A DNA stretch of 64,000 bases from NCBI RefSeq assembly GCF_030296755.1, contig NZ_AP027741.1:1985475-2049474 (forward strand). Direction: 5' to 3'. A program made the translations under genes and the position numbers. This stretch comes from Methylophaga marina (GTDB lineage Bacteria > Pseudomonadota > Gammaproteobacteria > Nitrosococcales > Methylophagaceae). Below are positions 35,010-59,685 of the stretch, piece by piece (position 1 is the first letter of the stretch; every line of letters begins with the position of its first letter). Below the pieces are notes generated by a model. It saw only the letters and a program-made list of their open reading frames with translations, made no database searches and was not told where the DNA came from.

Positions 35010-35131
35010 ACTTTTGGACGATATCTTTATTAATTCCAGTCCAGTAATCTGTAAATAACAGCTTTTTATGAATATACATCTGTTTTGAGTGACCAGAAGC
35101 TAACTTCATTTATCGAATTTTTATTCAATAC

Positions 35132-35213
35132 ATTAACGCCAAACCTGATGTGAGTCAGGGACGGAAAACCGACAGCTGTACATTATTGGTATCAGGGCTG
35201 GGCTGCATAACAT
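35132..35213 (+). promoter_or_regulatory. c-di-GMP-I (GEMM) riboswitch-like leader, copy 1
   Basis: The leader reads GCCAAACC, a stem CCTGA/TCAGG closed by a GTGA (GNRA) tetraloop, then GGGACGGAAAACCGACAGC and later GGTATCAGGGCTGGGCTGC. This follows the GEMM order CAAACC, GNRA-capped stem, GGGACGCAAAGCC, and the tail GGTAGCCGGGTTGCC. Differences are ACGGAAAAC for ACGCAAAGC and a longer tail. It ends 12 bases before a VPxxP-CTERM gene. The same elements recur at 38997 before a second such gene. Confidence 0.65.
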
Positions 35214-35224
35214 GGACATTTCTT

Positions 35225-35719
35225 ATGAAAAAAATAGTGTGGATACTATTCAGTCTGCTTTTATTGACGCTATCACATAGCACATGGGCTGCGACTGTCG
35301 TTAAAGCTGAGTTTGTTGCTGGATGGCCAGAGTATGATGGTGGAGAGTTTCAGTTTTCTGGAAATTTTGTAGGTGAAGATCTGAATAATGACGGTCTCTT
35401 GTCTTTCGGAGAGTTTTCCGTATTTAATTGGCGCTCAACATACGAGTCTTTCACCATAGCAGACTTGTTTGATACAGGTGATATCATGATTAGTACGCAA
35501 GAATGGTTGAATAATGGCATAAGTTGGATTGGGGCCTCCGACTTGGCTTACATCACATGGGATGACAGAGGGCAATCAATAAATACTATTCTTAAGGGTG
35601 AATATCGCTTTACCTCTTTTGAGGTGTCGGCGGTGCCATTGCCACCAGCAGCCTTGCTATTTGCTCCTGCGCTACTTGGTTTCATGGGCTTACGTCGCAA
35701 AGTAAAGCTCGCTGTTTAA
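35225..35719 (+). CDS. VPxxP-CTERM (exosortase-type) sorted surface protein with EF-hand-like loop
   Basis: A 164-residue precursor with a signal peptide (MKKIVWILFSLLLLTLSHSTWA). The C-terminal sorting signal is VPLPPAALLFAPALLGFMGL, followed by RRK: a VPxxP motif, a hydrophobic helix and a basic end, as in PEP-CTERM-like exosortase substrates. Residues about 56-69 read EDLNNDGLLSFGEF, an EF-hand-like Ca2+ loop common in these proteins. The body is otherwise unrecognised. The riboswitch leader suggests c-di-GMP control, in keeping with a biofilm or surface role. I reject longer starts because they translate the riboswitch. The exosortase itself is not in the window. Confidence 0.8.
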   Translation: MKKIVWILFSLLLLTLSHSTWAATVVKAEFVAGWPEYDGGEFQFSGNFVGEDLNNDGLLSFGEFSVFNWRSTYESFTIADLFDTGDIMISTQEWLNNGISWIGASDLAYITWDDRGQSINTILKGEYRFTSFEVSAVPLPPAALLFAPALLGFMGLRRKVKLAV

Positions 35720-35983: not shown

Positions 35984-38302
35984 CTATTCGAAGCCGATGC
36001 TCAGTGTCAATGCTGTTACAAATATAAAGATGACAACAGCTTTGACAGGGTTATTAATCTCATTAATCTTTTTGAATAGGCGTTTAATCGCTTTTCGCCC
36101 GAACTTACGTTTCATACTCACTTTGAAGTCATATAGATAAAACGGAACTTTATAGGTGAAAGTGAAGTTTTTACTTTTTCGCATACCGCTCAGATAAATC
36201 TCCACAAATCTGTCCCTGCCTTCCGGATGCAGCTTGTATGTAATTCGCGTTAAGTCTGATAGACGTTTAGGCATGCTAACTGGGTGGTTGTAGAAGCGTG
36301 CTCTATTGATATCAATTAATGTGAACGTCAAGTCAGGCTCTCTTTTCTTAACGAGTATATTGCCGCCAGCTAAATCTCGGAAAAATACGCCTCGAGCATG
36401 CATTTGTTGAAGAAATTCTGACAATGCACGATAGATTGTGTCCTCCGCTACCCCCTGATAACTGTTTGCTCCTTCACGAAGCGCATTGAACATGTCCCGA
36501 ATATTGAAATCATGATCAACTTTTTCACAAATAAACACATTTTCCAACATGCTTTTGTCACCACTTTTTTCAAAGTAAGCAATAGCTCGTGCCGTTGATA
36601 TATTTCTTCGCGATAATTCAGCTGCTGCATTCCAACTTCTACGGGCTTTACTTGGTTTGAAACGATCAACGATAAGCTTTTGAATTGCTACCTTAAGTGG
36701 TTTCTTTGCTACAACTTCTTCGTCATTAACGCCGGGAACTCTCCAAATGATATTTCGGGCTTTTCTGAAGGTATTTTCTTTTGTATAAGTGGGAAGTCGA
36801 TCGGGGTGAAGTTCTTTGATTATGGCCTCTGCATGTGTTTCATCATGGGCTGCTAGCATGCCAACCCAGCCATTTTCATTGATGGGGAAGTATTGCCCAT
36901 AACCAGTGTGAGCGAACAGAGAAGTTGTCGTTAAATTGTGGTCTACAGAAAGTGTCACTTCATCTACGCCTTCCCAGAGGAGGAACATCGGTGACTCGTT
37001 AACGAAATGTGCTGAGGTTCCTAAATCATGACCATCACGATTTTTAAACTCAGCTTTTTGCAAGTCTGACTCATCATAAAGGTTAGCCAGATCACAAGCT
37101 TTACCGTTAATGGTCCATGCGATGTGCACCACGGAGTCGTCTTTTTTAAAGGCATGTATTTCAATATTTTTTGTCGTTGCCAGTGCGCCTTTGTATTCAG
37201 CACTGGAAATAGCGGTAATGACTTGTTTTAATGCATAGAAAGATGGACGAGCACGGAAGCTTTCTAATGGACCAATCACGCTGGCGTAATGGGTGATACG
37301 TTCAAGCTTAGGATATTGTTCGCTACCATCATCAATTAGTCCCTCTCTTGCGCAGAGTAAAGGTCCCCAAAATGCTTTCTCTAGCGAACCTGATGCAGCC
37401 AGTAAAACAAAATATCGACTCAGATAATCAGCTTGTTTTTGTTCTTTCTCAACTAAAACTCGCTCGATTCTGGGTAGTGTCCAGAAGGCGGCGGGTGACA
37501 CAAATCTTGACACGCCATTTTCATCTCCCGCCTTTCTCATTAAACGAGCTTTTTTAACTAAATTATATTTAAGTAATTTTGCCCACTTGAAGCCCAATAC
37601 ACGATGATCATAGCGCTCCGGCTCACTAACACGTTCTGTAAATAGGTTATTAGTATGAATGTCAGGCAACATTGACATGCTACCTAATTCATCGAGGAGT
37701 CCAAATGAATAAAAGGGCTCAAAATCAGAAATATTAGGTCCGGCTATTGTGATACCTCTTGCTTTGAGTTCAGTGTAAGCGATTTTCCAGGCGGCAAAAA
37801 AGCCTGGCTTACTGTAGCCAGCCCATCTTCTACGGTTGATCGTCGTACCGATCTCTATTGCTGATACATCTGAACCAAAATGCTCACAGACTTCAATAAG
37901 AAATTGATGCCATGTGTCCTGTGCGTCCTTGGTCTCCATCTGATGCGCTTGATCAAATGGTTGAACGAGATGAAGAAGCACATCAAAATCTTCAGTGATG
38001 AGTTTTCTGAGTAATCTACCTGCATTACCAGTCACATCGCCGTAACTGAGATCAATACGTACTGACTTGATATTAAGTTCGTGTAGATGATTGATGATGT
38101 AATCATCGACGCGAGCATCATCAGATGCAGCGACACCAACGCCAAGAAAGTTTTCAGGCACGACATGACCCGCTTGAGGGATGTGACCTTTGCGAAGCAA
38201 AAGACCGCCTTTTAAAGTGTGCTTAATTGTTTTTAATAAGAACCTTCCATCCACCATAGAAGGTATGTTTGCCGCTTCGCTTTTTCTCGGTAAGCCAGTC
38301 AT
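35984..38302 (-). CDS. Glycosidase-like domain fused to Kdo/WaaP-type kinase-like domain, membrane-anchored
   Basis: A 772-residue protein. Residues about 45-350 look like a TIM-barrel glycoside hydrolase: NFLGVGVAASDD, VRIDLSYGDVTG, and AIEIGTTINRRRWAGYSKPG, where the Glu sits as the acid/base does in clan-A enzymes. A beta-rich middle (about 380-500) follows. The C-terminal part (about 520-720) is like the lipopolysaccharide (Kdo/WaaP) kinase family, with MHARGVFFRDLAGGNILV as catalytic loop and FTLIDINRAR as the DFG-equivalent. The end has basic residues and a hydrophobic segment (PVKAVVIFIFVTALTLSIGF). It sits between two CTERM genes. A role in surface polysaccharide handling is inference. 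Confidence 0.6.
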   Translation of the reverse strand: MTGLPRKSEAANIPSMVDGRFLLKTIKHTLKGGLLLRKGHIPQAGHVVPENFLGVGVAASDDARVDDYIINHLHELNIKSVRIDLSYGDVTGNAGRLLRKLITEDFDVLLHLVQPFDQAHQMETKDAQDTWHQFLIEVCEHFGSDVSAIEIGTTINRRRWAGYSKPGFFAAWKIAYTELKARGITIAGPNISDFEPFYSFGLLDELGSMSMLPDIHTNNLFTERVSEPERYDHRVLGFKWAKLLKYNLVKKARLMRKAGDENGVSRFVSPAAFWTLPRIERVLVEKEQKQADYLSRYFVLLAASGSLEKAFWGPLLCAREGLIDDGSEQYPKLERITHYASVIGPLESFRARPSFYALKQVITAISSAEYKGALATTKNIEIHAFKKDDSVVHIAWTINGKACDLANLYDESDLQKAEFKNRDGHDLGTSAHFVNESPMFLLWEGVDEVTLSVDHNLTTTSLFAHTGYGQYFPINENGWVGMLAAHDETHAEAIIKELHPDRLPTYTKENTFRKARNIIWRVPGVNDEEVVAKKPLKVAIQKLIVDRFKPSKARRSWNAAAELSRRNISTARAIAYFEKSGDKSMLENVFICEKVDHDFNIRDMFNALREGANSYQGVAEDTIYRALSEFLQQMHARGVFFRDLAGGNILVKKREPDLTFTLIDINRARFYNHPVSMPKRLSDLTRITYKLHPEGRDRFVEIYLSGMRKSKNFTFTYKVPFYLYDFKVSMKRKFGRKAIKRLFKKINEINNPVKAVVIFIFVTALTLSIGFE

Positions 38303-38811: not shown

Positions 38812-38842
38812 GTCCTCCATAGCTCAGCTGGATAGAGCATTG
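38812..38842 (+). repeat. tRNA 5'-half-like fragment 1
   Basis: GTCCTCCATAGCTCAGCTGG followed by ATAGAGCA is a tRNA acceptor strand, D-stem and D-loop. It departs from tRNA sequence soon after the D arm. A TATAAT box is at 38795-38800. Upstream sequence (from about 38705) is alike that before fragment 2 at 39875. Confidence 0.7.
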
Positions 38843-38996
38843 AATATTTATCTGTCCACAATGAGAAAGATAGGACGGGGAATCCATTATTGGCTCTGAT
38901 AATCAATATCAAAATTTATTATTAGTACCAAAGTACAATAGTTCTTAATAGAAATTTAGTGTGAAAATAAGTAGGTGATTAAATCACTCTCTTTTA

Positions 38997-39080
38997 TTAT
39001 GCCAAACTTGGCGTGAGCCTTGGACGGAAAACCACAGCTGTGCTTATAAGGACAGGTATCAGGGCTGGGTTGCATACCTT
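38997..39080 (+). promoter_or_regulatory. c-di-GMP-I (GEMM) riboswitch-like leader, copy 2
   Basis: GCCAAACTTGGCGTGAGCC holds a stem TTGGC/GCC capped by a GTGA tetraloop, then TTGGACGGAAAACCACAGC, and then GGTATCAGGGCTGGGTTGC closed by ATACC. Blocks and spacing match copy 1 at 35132, while linking bases differ and stems are kept, which supports a structured RNA. It ends about 15 bases before the next VPxxP-CTERM gene. Confidence 0.7.
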
Positions 39081-39094
39081 TAAGGAGTTCACCG

Positions 39095-39712
39095 ATGAAT
39101 AAGATGATCGCTACAATAATATTCTCATTTTTTTCTTTACCTATCTTTGCCGCTCCCGTCGACATTGATTTGAGTGGGACTACCTCTGCAAGCCTAATTG
39201 ATGCTGATGGGGCAAGTTTTTCACAAACTTTTACAGGTCAGACTGCATCTGGGTCAGGCATTTCAGGTTCCCCTACAGGTTCATTGTCACTAGCACCAAG
39301 TGGAACAATAAGTGTAGCCTCTTATAATTCTGCCAATTCACTTCTTTCACCCTCTAACAACCAAGGCCCATTGTCGATTTTGTTTGACTTTAATGCCGAT
39401 AGTTTTTCTTGGGTGATGGGAAGCTCTAATGCAGGATACAACGTTACTGTAGATTTGTTTTCAAATAATGGCAGTTTAATCAACACAGTATTAATCAGCA
39501 TGCTGGAAGGGTATAACAAATACTCTATTTCCGGCTTGGGTGCTTTTGCCGGACTTACTTTTAGAGACAATAATGACCCATATGGTGTTCGTTACATGGA
39601 CATGTCTTATAATAGCGTGTCTGAAGTTCCAATCCCTGCCGCCGCTTTTATGTTTGCACCTGCACTACTAGGGTTTATGGGCTTGCGTCGAAGAGCCAAG
39701 CCAGTTGTTTAG
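39095..39712 (+). CDS. VPxxP-CTERM (exosortase-type) sorted surface protein
   Basis: A 205-residue precursor with signal peptide MNKMIATIIFSFFSLPIFA and the C-terminal sorting signal VPIPAAAFMFAPALLGFMGL, followed by RRRAK, nearly identical to that of the 35225 protein. The body is Ser/Gly/Asn-rich and beta-like, without charged clusters, as in adhesin-like or matrix CTERM proteins. AAGGAG precedes the ATG. The upstream riboswitch and the downstream terminator make it a single-gene unit. The body is unlike the 35225 protein, so the shared parts are the leader and the sorting tail. Confidence 0.8.
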   Translation: MNKMIATIIFSFFSLPIFAAPVDIDLSGTTSASLIDADGASFSQTFTGQTASGSGISGSPTGSLSLAPSGTISVASYNSANSLLSPSNNQGPLSILFDFNADSFSWVMGSSNAGYNVTVDLFSNNGSLINTVLISMLEGYNKYSISGLGAFAGLTFRDNNDPYGVRYMDMSYNSVSEVPIPAAAFMFAPALLGFMGLRRRAKPVV

Positions 39713-43717: not shown

Positions 43718-43835
43718 CCACTACATTTGTGGACAAAGATTGAGCAGTTTTTTTCCACTTAACTTTGATTTTAAGGTTGAGTTGATGCCGTTCAGTTGCC
43801 GGTCGCTCCGCTGGCTAGCTATAAGAGCATCCTGT

Positions 43836-43990
43836 TATAATGCCAGCCCGATGTCCCCGTAGCTCAGCTGGATAGAGCGTCCCCCTCCTAAATACTCCGG
43901 CACGAAATCGAAGGATGTCTGCACCGCAAGGCAATCCCTTGAATCTACTGGTTTTTTGGTTAAGTTTCCGGCTATCTTCCGGTTAATATT
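43836..43990 (+). repeat. Left direct repeat with tRNA-Arg(CCU) 5' half (fragment 3) and structured tail
   Basis: TATAAT at 43836-43841 precedes GTCCCCGTAGCTCAGCTGGA at 43853, then TAGAGCGTCCCCCTCCTAA to 43891: the complete acceptor strand, D arm, anticodon 5' strand and loop of a tRNA-Arg with anticodon CCT. It is cut exactly at the 3' edge of the anticodon loop. The next 60 bases contain the hairpin TGTCT/AGGCA around GCACCGCA, then GGTTTTTTGG, and then CCGGCTATCTTCCGG. The same order recurs at 50736-50889. It may be a fossil attachment site, a small RNA gene, or both. Confidence 0.75.
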
Positions 43991-50735: not shown

Positions 50736-50889
50736 TATAATGCCAGCCCGATGTCCCCGTAGCTCAGATGGATAGAGCGTCCCCCTCCTAAATCCTCCAG
50801 AGCAATATCGAAGATGCCTTCTACCGTAAGGCAATCCCATGATTATTGGGAGTTTTTATTTTAACTGCCGGTTATCTTCCGGCTGCTAG
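50736..50889 (+). repeat. Right direct repeat with tRNA-Arg(CCU) 5' half (fragment 4), hairpin and terminator
   Basis: TATAAT (50736-50741) lies 12 bases before GTCCCCGTAGCTCAGATGGA, then TAGAGCGTCCCCCTCCTAA ending at 50791, again cut at the end of the anticodon loop. Downstream are the hairpin TGCCTT-CTACCGT-AAGGCA and the terminator TCCCA-TGATTAT-TGGGA with GTTTTTATTTT to about 50872. Compared with 43836-43990, the first hairpin stem stays paired although its 5' strand changes (TGTCT versus TGCCT). A transcript of roughly 120 nt would start with the tRNA half. The preceding gap 50371-50735 shows no gene. Confidence 0.75.
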
Positions 50890-58306: not shown

Positions 58307-58434
58307 AGAACCATAGAACCATAGAACCATAGAACCATAGAACCATAGAACCATAGAACCATAGAACCATAGAACCATAGAACCATAGAACCATAGAACC
58401 ATAGAACCATAGAACCATAGAACCATAGAACCAT
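58307..58434. repeat. Sixteen perfect tandem copies of AGAACCAT
   Basis: The 8-bp unit is repeated 16 times without a mismatch over 128 bp, ending 27 bases before the integrase stop codon. It is not inside any gene. A perfect array of this type is prone to slippage and is probably of variable length between strains. Confidence 0.95.
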
Positions 58435-58461: not shown

Positions 58462-59685
58462 TTAATTAAGTACTGCAACGGCCTCAGATAGATGGGCTGG
58501 AGCAAGGTGGGCATAGCGGAGTGTCATCTTAATATCGGTATGACCCAACAGCTCACGGACGCTATTCAAATCGATGCCAGCTGATACAAGCCGGCTTGCA
58601 AAGTGGTGACGTAAATCGTGGAGACGGAAGTCTTGGATTTGAGCATCACGGAGAAGCACCTTCCATGCTTTGTCGATGTTAGTGAAGCGTTCACCGTTTT
58701 TGCCGACGAATACACAACCGGATGACCGTTTGGTTTGTTTGTGCCAAACATCTAAAACGCGAAATGCTTCTTTGTTTAGAGGTATGTAACGTGTTTGACC
58801 CGTTTTAGACGTGTTGCCAACTACAGTAATGCGTTTGTTGATGAAGTCGACATCTTGCCAGCGAAGGTTGAACATTTCGCCTCGACGCATACCGGTATTT
58901 ATCAGCAATAACACCATAGGATGAACGTGATCCGGAAAACCGCCTAAGATCGCTTCTAAGCGTGTAAAACGACCGCCAGTATAGAATGGGTTAGATTCGG
59001 TCAAACGACGATCACGTGATCGCAGGGTGGCTCTCAGACGCTGTTCTTCATCACTTGTAAGGTATCGAATGATGGCACGGCTATCTGACTTTTGTTTCTT
59101 CACTTTGCTGATGGGATTTTGTTGAATAATCTCCCACTCAACAGCCCGATTGAACATGGCTTTAATCGTACCTATGTATCGGTTAGAAGTTGAAGCGCTT
59201 AGACCTTCTTTGTGACGCTTTGAACGCCAGCTTTCTATGTCCCATGCAGTCACTTTGTCTAGTTGTTTACCAAAGAGATGTTTGAACTGATTGAACGGTA
59301 GTTTAGCTTTTGGGGCTTTGTGGTGAGCAGTGAACCAAGGAAGGTATGTGTCGCAGATAAAATCACCGAGCTTTGGCACGGGTTTTATTTCTCGTGCAGC
59401 TTGTTTTTCGCGCTGGATGTCACGACCAAGTTTCACTTGTGCGTAGAGCTGCTCTGCTAGTTTACGAGCAGCTGGAACGGAGAGAGCAGGGTAACTACCC
59501 ATCGTATAACGCAAACGACGGCCATCTGGGGCGGTGTACATCAAACTGAAAGTCATTGTGCCGGAGATGTAGCGCTTCAATTTGAAGCCGGCAATAATGG
59601 TGTCTGTGACTTCAAAATGCTTGTCGGTTTGTTGTTGGCTTAGCTTGGTAGCAATGGCGGGTGTGAGTTTGTGTTTGTAGTCCAT
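58462..59685 (-). CDS. Tyrosine-type site-specific integrase
   Basis: A 407-residue phage/island-type integrase. The N-terminal arm-binding domain (DUF4102 type) includes YTMGSYPALSVPAARKLAEQ. A SAM-like core-binding domain follows (about 105-205). The catalytic domain has Arg in TGMRRGEMFNLR, Lys in GNTSKTGQTR, HDLRHHFASRL, LGHTDIKMT and the nucleophile Tyr in TLRYAHLAP, so all catalytic residues are present. It should move the restriction island. Most integrases of this type use a tRNA end, but no intact tRNA lies beside it. Confidence 0.92.
   Translation of the reverse strand: MDYKHKLTPAIATKLSQQQTDKHFEVTDTIIAGFKLKRYISGTMTFSLMYTAPDGRRLRYTMGSYPALSVPAARKLAEQLYAQVKLGRDIQREKQAAREIKPVPKLGDFICDTYLPWFTAHHKAPKAKLPFNQFKHLFGKQLDKVTAWDIESWRSKRHKEGLSASTSNRYIGTIKAMFNRAVEWEIIQQNPISKVKKQKSDSRAIIRYLTSDEEQRLRATLRSRDRRLTESNPFYTGGRFTRLEAILGGFPDHVHPMVLLLINTGMRRGEMFNLRWQDVDFINKRITVVGNTSKTGQTRYIPLNKEAFRVLDVWHKQTKRSSGCVFVGKNGERFTNIDKAWKVLLRDAQIQDFRLHDLRHHFASRLVSAGIDLNSVRELLGHTDIKMTLRYAHLAPAHLSEAVAVLN

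Follow-up and report, generated by a model that had tools for sequence, protein, structure and literature searches.

The window analysed here, a stretch of 64,000 nucleotides from the marine, methanol-using bacterium Methylophaga marina (contig NZ_AP027741.1, positions 1,985,475 to 2,049,474), carries a gene whose product joins a barrel of the glycoside hydrolase family 39 (GH39) type, in which neither catalytic glutamate remains, to a kinase of the WaaP/Kdo-kinase kind with its motifs in place. On balance we think it probable that this protein is a cytoplasmic sugar kinase of the lipopolysaccharide (LPS) core or of a nascent glycolipid, and that the retired barrel serves to recognise the glycan. 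The gene, which lies on the minus strand, is an intact open reading frame (ORF) 772 codons long, and a first interpretation made from the letters of the DNA (the sequence-only reading) had rightly taken it for one protein, comprising a TIM-barrel part and a kinase-like fold with the catalytic loop FRDLAGGN. The same interpretation had the protein both cutting and phosphorylating a glycan in one chain, which the fate of the barrel's catalytic residues, described below, argues against. The gene and its parts are as follows.

35984 to 38302, minus strand: gene for the fusion of a pseudo-GH39 barrel and a WaaP-like kinase, 772 amino acids (exact ORF in the ORF list; ratio of nonsynonymous to synonymous substitution rates, dN/dS, 0.21 against the 97% identical copy L041)
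37199 to 38170, minus strand: TIM barrel, about residues 45 to 368 (AlphaFold2; VIA-align matches to GH39 5jvk_A, Z 29.9, and PslG, Z 27.4 to 27.7)
36971 to 37198, minus strand: beta domain C-terminal to the barrel, about residues 369 to 444, inside the same GH39/PslG match (AlphaFold2 strands; matches extend to residue 444)
37841 to 37843, minus strand: codon of Thr154, the GH39 acid/base Glu position (Thr in 75, Ala in 1 of 76 relatives; GH39 mapping; codon checked)
37490 to 37492, minus strand: codon of Ala271, the GH39 nucleophile Glu position (Ala 39, Tyr 14, Ser 13, Cys 6, Val 2, Thr 1, Asn 1 of 76; GH39 mapping; codon checked)
36188 to 36895, minus strand: WaaP/Kdo-kinase-like domain, about residues 470 to 705 (Pfam PF06293; kinase-only model; WaaP 6dfl_A)
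36704 to 36706, minus strand: codon of Lys533, the presumed ATP-binding Lys (76 of 76; codon checked)
36374 to 36376, minus strand: codon of Asp643 in the catalytic loop FRDLAGGN (76 of 76; codon checked)
36059 to 36160, minus strand: basic C-terminal helices, about residues 715 to 748, a family feature (Lys731 in 76 and Tyr724 in 75 of 76; helices in the kinase-only model)
35996 to 36049, minus strand: hydrophobic C-terminal helix, residues 752 to 769, private to the window's lineage (hydropathy; comparison with L041)

Both folds proposed for the protein are borne out by structure prediction. The full-length AlphaFold2 model, built on a 20-row alignment, has a mean predicted local distance difference test score (pLDDT) of 83.6, and its residues from about 40 to 444 match the GH39 glycosidase 5jvk_A (root-mean-square deviation 3.1, 353 residues aligned) and, over about 350 residues, the PslG structures 5bx9, 4zn2 and 9g17, so that a TIM barrel with the beta domain of the GH39 type is present; beta-Klotho (5van_A) is also among the fold matches of the barrel. 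The kinase half modelled alone reaches a pLDDT of 93.4, and its best fold match is WaaP (6dfl_A; Z 15.8, root-mean-square deviation 4.3, 233 residues aligned), in a tie with human PRPK (6wqx_C, 15.7); a kinase-only profile compared with solved structures likewise returned WaaP 6dfl_A as its top match (E 2.5e-7). Pfam and NCBIfam models recognise the kinase half alone, and residues 1 to 537 match no listed model. When a profile of the whole fused family (A1) was compared with solved structures, the best 60 of 210 matches were of kinase type and none was PslG or GH39; hence the GH39 link is visible only through structure comparison and through bridging GH39-like proteins.

Relatives were found by scanning one genome per species for two peptide patterns, GPN[IV]SDFE and WGPxxCxR[ED]G, which gave 123 relatives, the best 80 being kept. 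From the 82 loci taken, L087 and L090 held no ORF passing the cut, leaving 80 for gene context, and four proteins shorter than 700 residues (L078, L085, L103, L120) were left out of the residue columns, leaving 76 rows; L041 and L042 lie outside the 82-locus set. The aligned rows are not independent, many being from Methylophaga and two (L053 and L101) near-identical. The record of L101 is titled Pelagibacterium, and its copy shares a near-zero branch with that of Methylophaga L053; it probably represents a mis-binned contig.

The bridge to the glycosidases is supplied by five catalytic GH39-like proteins from the same class (L150, L156, L157, L158, L161), with which the fused barrel aligns profile to profile at P 7.1e-12, and one of which (L150) also matches Pfam GH39. 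The alignment pairs their EIWNEPN with EIGTTIN of the fused barrel, and their NTESGW with SPAAFW, thereby placing Thr154 at the acid/base position after strand 4 (the Glu of the xxNE motif) and Ala271 at the nucleophile position after strand 7. Both glutamates are absent in all 76 relatives (the counts, given above, fall outside the peptide patterns used to find them); no acidic residue occurs at positions 152 to 156 in any of the 76, and acids around strand 7 are confined to the variable position 266 (19 rows) and to position 273 (2 rows). The invariant Glu150, which may be the residue that had been taken for a plausible acid/base, lies off-site, four residues N-terminal of Thr154. No match to the Pfam GH39 profile was listed for the fused protein up to E 10, a range in which HMMER filters drop most matches above about 0.1. 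Judged from its sequence, the fused barrel is not a GH39-type glycosidase, and this loss of catalytic residues across homologues refutes, on the sequence-only reading's own terms, the glycosidase half of the activity that it proposed.

A possibly intermediate condition is found in five stand-alone barrels without a kinase (set A6: L127, L129, L143, L144, L140; 348 to 545 amino acids; two pairs closely related), which align with the fused barrel at a P of 7e-24 (hhalign) and with the catalytic GH39 set at 3.8e-12, and have the N-R-x-x-W and D-F-E motifs in common with the fused family. In these the strand-7 Glu is kept in five of five and the acid/base position is Ala, a pattern that fits stepwise loss of the GH39 pair, with the acid/base lost first (stand-alone barrels) and the nucleophile next (fusion), although five sequences prove no order. 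Used as a query, the stand-alone barrel L127 found no match among solved structures, and a profile of all five found two weak ones (E 0.26 and 0.40). In L140 (103-1737; also in L145) the 545-residue stand-alone relative adjoins an ORF that by eye resembles an O-antigen ligase.

The conservation of the fused barrel is concentrated in particular regions. There are 56 invariant columns in the 76-row alignment, 33 of them in the barrel, and 23 of these 33 fall in the top-face loops that follow strands 4 to 8 (strand ends being taken from the full-length AlphaFold2 model). These loops account for 99 of the 321 residues of the barrel. Several of the invariant residues are arginines (R157, R224, R278, R281, R319), a composition compatible with an anionic ligand. 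The pattern GPN[IV]SDFE itself occurs in 46 and WGPxxCxR[ED]G in 72 of the 76 rows; N156-R157-W160, N219-D232 and R278/R281 lie outside both. Compared with the copy in Methylophaga sp. SAT92 (L041), the barrel has a dN/dS of 0.14, from 12 changes, and the kinase one of 0.16, from 16. As these substitutions and conserved columns indicate, the barrel is no relic and is under purifying selection. Decay of the window's copy, a possibility raised by its long end branch (0.63), was rejected in view of the whole-gene dN/dS and the lack of any stop codon.

An active site would give such conservation too, and 76 of 76 relatives have the acids D193, E195, E223, E229 and D232 in the loops that follow strands 5 and 6 (D193 and E195 lying inside a search pattern). 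These could in principle make the barrel a glycosidase, transglycosidase or lyase still, the kinase then phosphorylating its product. We consider a two-activity enzyme of this sort unlikely: both GH39 catalytic positions lack an acid in every relative, strand-7 acids are restricted as described, the stand-alone barrels with their strand-7 Glu and acid/base Ala fit stepwise loss, and we know of no retaining clan-A enzyme whose catalytic acids have moved elsewhere.

The kinase half, on the other hand, looks intact and active from its residues. Pfam PF06293 (Kdo/WaaP) covers residues 547 to 671 at E 5.9e-10 (39.4 bits, cut-off 21.3) and is also over its cut-off in the relatives L080, L061 and L111; the NCBIfam equivalogs for RfaP (NF011703, 25.7 of 170 bits) and Kdo kinase (NF002475, 24.8 of 142 bits) both stay below theirs. 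In all 76 aligned relatives K533, D643, N648, D664 and R667 are present, an Asn at the second metal position being the usual protein-kinase residue. The His of the HRD motif is replaced by Phe in the window (Phe in 61, His in 15 of 76). R667 stands three residues after the metal-binding-type D664, as Arg191 of WaaP stands after Asp188, the correspondence between the two proteins being set by motif order. In the study of WaaP (PMC6147952), the Arg of this Asp-x-x-Arg is listed as substrate-binding; changes at K51, H161, D163, D188, Y165, H168 and R191 gave no growth, E78A gave a 128-fold ethylenediaminetetraacetate (EDTA) shift, and R162A one of only 2-fold. A search with PADLOC gave a single weak match, to PD-T4-6 (E 0.00039), that spans 47 residues of the kinase and was taken as generic.

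The ends of the protein bear on its location. A 19-residue hydropathy scan with a cut of 1.6, the sole basis on which signal peptides and membrane helices were judged, found no N-terminal hydrophobic stretch above the cut in 75 of 76 rows, the exception being L058 at 1.63. The hydrophobic C-terminal end that had been remarked on is real in the window, but it is not a family feature: it exceeds the cut in one of the 76 rows, that of the window itself, and the last 28 codons of L041, which is outside those rows, are identical to the window's.

The distribution of the fusion is wide but discontinuous. Matches occur in 27 of 58 near genomes, the window's own included, 24 of them being two-domain proteins and three corresponding to one domain only; 18 of 22 genomes of the same genus hold the two-domain protein (G004 and G010 as incomplete copies). 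Its hosts include Methylophaga, Methylobacillus and other Methylophilaceae, among them the small marine genomes KB13, LSUCC0665 and LSUCC0717, together with Rhodocyclaceae/Azonexaceae, Porticoccus, a Halieaceae bin and Desulfuromonadales. Across the class, 369 sampled genomes gave 34 matches at E <= 0.001, just 5 of them full-length, and 16 pattern matches in viral contigs included no relative.

The search of other genomes, which the first interpretation had suggested, thus recovered the fusion as a family, together with informative neighbours. LPS-core-type genes, meaning BLAST clusters labelled MsbA, WaaP, double kinase, small kinase, group-1 glycosyltransferase or heptosyltransferase, lie near the fused gene in 21 of 80 loci, 17 of these with two or more kinds, a raw count from loci that are not independent within a clade. 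Each cluster label rests on one or two scanned representatives: those for MsbA, WaaP (RfaP) and heptosyltransferase I exceed their NCBIfam cut-offs, the double kinase exceeds that of PF06293, and the small kinase exceeds that of APH and falls just below that of PF06293 (21.1 of 21.3), neither of these two kinases passing an equivalog. The association spans Rhodocyclaceae-type loci, Methylobacillus flagellatus and another genus of the window's family (L098, L104, L109). In a further 13 of the 80 loci, none with the LPS-core-type set, a gene for a sulfatase-fold membrane protein lies just upstream; for the one representative scanned, the best NCBIfam matches are phosphoglycerol transferases, below cut-off. 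Because LPS phosphoethanolamine transferases share the sulfatase fold, these 13 loci cannot separate an LPS-core role from one on another glycan. In 10 loci the start of the fused gene lies in a start-stop overlap with heptosyltransferase I (L061, in Methylobacillus flagellatus), the small kinase (L068, L082, L110) or the sulfatase-fold gene (L065, L106, L113, L116, L117, L118), every frame being read from its earliest start codon; these overlaps suggest translational coupling. About 5-6 kb from the fused gene, the loci L036, L037, L038, L098, L102, L104, L108 and L109 (the first three being the same genomes as L098, L104 and L109) encode a protein of 740-767 amino acids in which a single chain combines a WaaP-like domain with additional kinase-like stretches (L104 copy scanned), a second unusual architecture among LPS kinases.

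From the kinase family and its neighbours we infer that the fused protein would be a peripheral WaaP/Kdo-type sugar kinase facing the cytoplasm, the side on which the LPS core is assembled, and that at the inner membrane it would transfer phosphate from adenosine triphosphate (ATP) to a sugar of the nascent core or of a related lipid-linked glycan. The conserved top-face loops of the barrel would most likely serve in recognition, binding the glycan and positioning it for the kinase. Both halves are predicted to be cytoplasmic, because the kinase needs ATP and no N-terminal signal is seen by hydropathy, and this predicted location argues against action on an external matrix; of the envelope or matrix glycan first envisaged as the substrate, the envelope is the best reading by family and context, and the matrix is disfavoured. 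We entertain more tentatively a further possibility, namely a barrel remodelled into a new active or gripping site. The two GH39 glutamates would have gone one after the other, and a new invariant set (NRxxW, DFE, NLFxER...PE..D, R278/R281, R319) would have arisen meanwhile, serving either a new sugar chemistry or a gauge that makes LPS-core phosphorylation depend on a finished glycan, in what would be a new family of envelope-glycan kinases of beta- and gammaproteobacteria.

Several observations weigh against a glycan-recognising LPS-core kinase. The barrel loops bearing the invariant residues have low pLDDT (block means of 53-67 for residues 151-160, 191-200, 221-240, 271-280 and 331-340), and the geometry of a pocket therefore cannot be read from the model; invariance inside the search patterns (for example D193 F194 E195 and W312 G313 R319) was partly selected for. 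In the kinase, the presumed Lys partner E562 is present in 62 and lacking in 14 of 76 relatives, and in WaaP it is E78A that gave the 128-fold EDTA shift. As to context, 46 of 80 loci, Methylophaga included, have neither an LPS-core-type nor a sulfatase-fold neighbour, and no Methylophaga locus examined is among the 21. The fused gene is absent from four of the 22 same-genus genomes, three of them listed as 100% complete, and so is not essential to the genus. Elsewhere in the window's own genome, at 1.128-1.137 Mb and some 0.9 Mb away, three further PF06293 proteins are encoded together in open frames of 266, 245 and 510 amino acids, and these probably include the cell's WaaP; PF06293 matches occur in 44 of 58 near genomes, including every same-genus genome and thus the four without the fusion. 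The fused gene is then an extra kinase, and probably not the cell's WaaP.

The phosphate acceptor might alternatively be a protein, with the barrel sensing a cytoplasmic sugar or glycolipid and the kinase acting as a regulator that, for instance, tunes envelope synthesis. The kinase motifs resemble those of eukaryotic-type protein kinases too, and pseudoglycosidases can be receptors, as is beta-Klotho, one of the fold matches. This appears improbable to us, in that the first neighbour by both sequence and fold is a sugar kinase (the fold being tied with PRPK), the WaaP Asp-x-x-Arg with its substrate-binding Arg is kept in 76 of 76 relatives, and LPS-core genes are neighbours in several clades.

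Another proposal draws on the immediate surroundings of the gene, which had been described as controlled by cyclic di-GMP (c-di-GMP). Two c-di-GMP-I riboswitches do flank it:

35128 to 35210, plus strand: c-di-GMP-I riboswitch heading the neighbouring gene 35150-35719 (Rfam RF01051, 46.5 bits)
38991 to 39077, plus strand: c-di-GMP-I riboswitch before the flanking gene 39095-39712 (Rfam RF01051, 46.7 bits)

Both aptamers lie within 1 kb of the two ends of the fused gene, on the opposite strand, and read into the flanking genes; no aptamer was found in the leader of the fused gene, nor any other gathering-level Rfam match in the window. Scored within 11.6-19 kb per locus, riboswitches recur near the fused gene in one of 15 other same-genus loci (L041) and in none of 8 loci of other groups. 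The c-di-GMP link hence looks like a local accident. The flanking genes were labelled PEP-CTERM-like by eye from their C-termini, NCBIfam giving one weak, below-cut-off match for one of the two. An exosortase/PEP-CTERM partnership was considered and dropped, exosortase exceeding its Pfam cut-off in 16 of 24 genomes with the fusion versus 18 of 34 without it. In the window's own genome the exosortase (PF09721) gene at C1:2305084-2305841 looks broken near its start, with stops in the first part and the rest in a separate frame; G011 shows a similar pattern. Genes whose ends look PEP-CTERM-like by eye nevertheless persist next to c-di-GMP riboswitches in the window's genome.

That the protein is, along the lines of the sequence-only reading, a c-di-GMP-controlled exopolysaccharide or matrix enzyme, and that it works with these PEP-CTERM-like flanking proteins, is on this evidence decidedly unlikely. 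Two real riboswitches stand close by, the closest characterised barrel, PslG, is an exopolysaccharide glycosidase (PMC6813494), and in another Methylophaga, strain GP59, genes of PEP-CTERM type next to exopolysaccharide genes are preceded by four c-di-GMP riboswitches (PMC12530212); but in the window the riboswitches face away and rarely recur, exosortase has no clear link to the fusion, and a matrix is extracellular while the kinase needs ATP and has no N-terminal signal. Very unlikely, finally, is a kinase for some other lipid-linked or periplasm-bound glycan (an osmoregulated glucan, a capsule or the end of an O-chain) whose chain end the barrel would read: the 13 loci with a phosphoglycerol-transferase-like sulfatase-fold neighbour would allow it, but the remaining 21 loci of informative context point to the LPS core.

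Three tRNA-like 5' parts (TAGCTCAG[C/A]TGGATAGAGC), each preceded by a TATAATGCC stretch, occur in the window at 38820-38840, 43860-43880 and 50760-50780, and an 83-nucleotide copy pair at 43831 and 50731; no complete tRNA was found in the window, and the parts resemble traces left by elements that integrated into a tRNA gene. At 58307-58434 there is an array of 16 perfect head-to-tail copies of the 8-base unit AGAACCAT, just downstream of a minus-strand ORF (58462-59685) that is integrase-like by eye.

Phosphates of the LPS core are important to the integrity of the outer membrane, and Pseudomonas aeruginosa needs WaaP in order to grow (PMC6147952). If the preferred reading of the fusion as a glycan-recognising LPS-core kinase is true, the joining of a retired glycosidase to a widespread kinase would represent a new way of tying phosphorylation to glycan structure, and an added bacterial case of a glycosidase fold turned into the recognition part of another enzyme. 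In the literature found by searches aimed at the fusion, with subscription papers and preprints outside their scope, the architecture is not named.

Among known systems, the Klotho proteins, animal pseudoglycosidase receptors of the GH1 type, offer an analogy as examples of a glycosidase fold used for recognition; they have no bacterial kinase, and only the barrel fold is in common with the fusion. GH39 glycosidases (5jvk and beta-xylosidases) are alike in fold, with Z up to 29.9, and are linked by profile through the catalytic GH39-like proteins, whereas the fusion has neither a listed Pfam GH39 match nor the catalytic pair. PslG, the GH39-like endoglycosidase of Pseudomonas aeruginosa, resembles the fusion in its barrel and beta domain; however, E165 and E276, which are critical in PslG (PMC6813494), correspond by GH39 mapping to positions that are non-acidic in 76 of 76 fused relatives, and the matched PslG chains are without a kinase. 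The stand-alone barrels are tied to the fusion by NRxxW and DFE and differ in having no kinase and in keeping the strand-7 Glu (5 of 5). Finally, the LPS core heptose(I) kinase WaaP (RfaP; 6dfl) has in common with the fused protein its PF06293 kinase fold and the motif order Lys, Glu, [H/F]RD, metal-binding Asp and Asp-x-x-Arg, but the fusion has Phe for the HRD His, Asn at the second metal position where WaaP has His168 (PMC6147952), an RfaP score far below cut-off, and an attached barrel.

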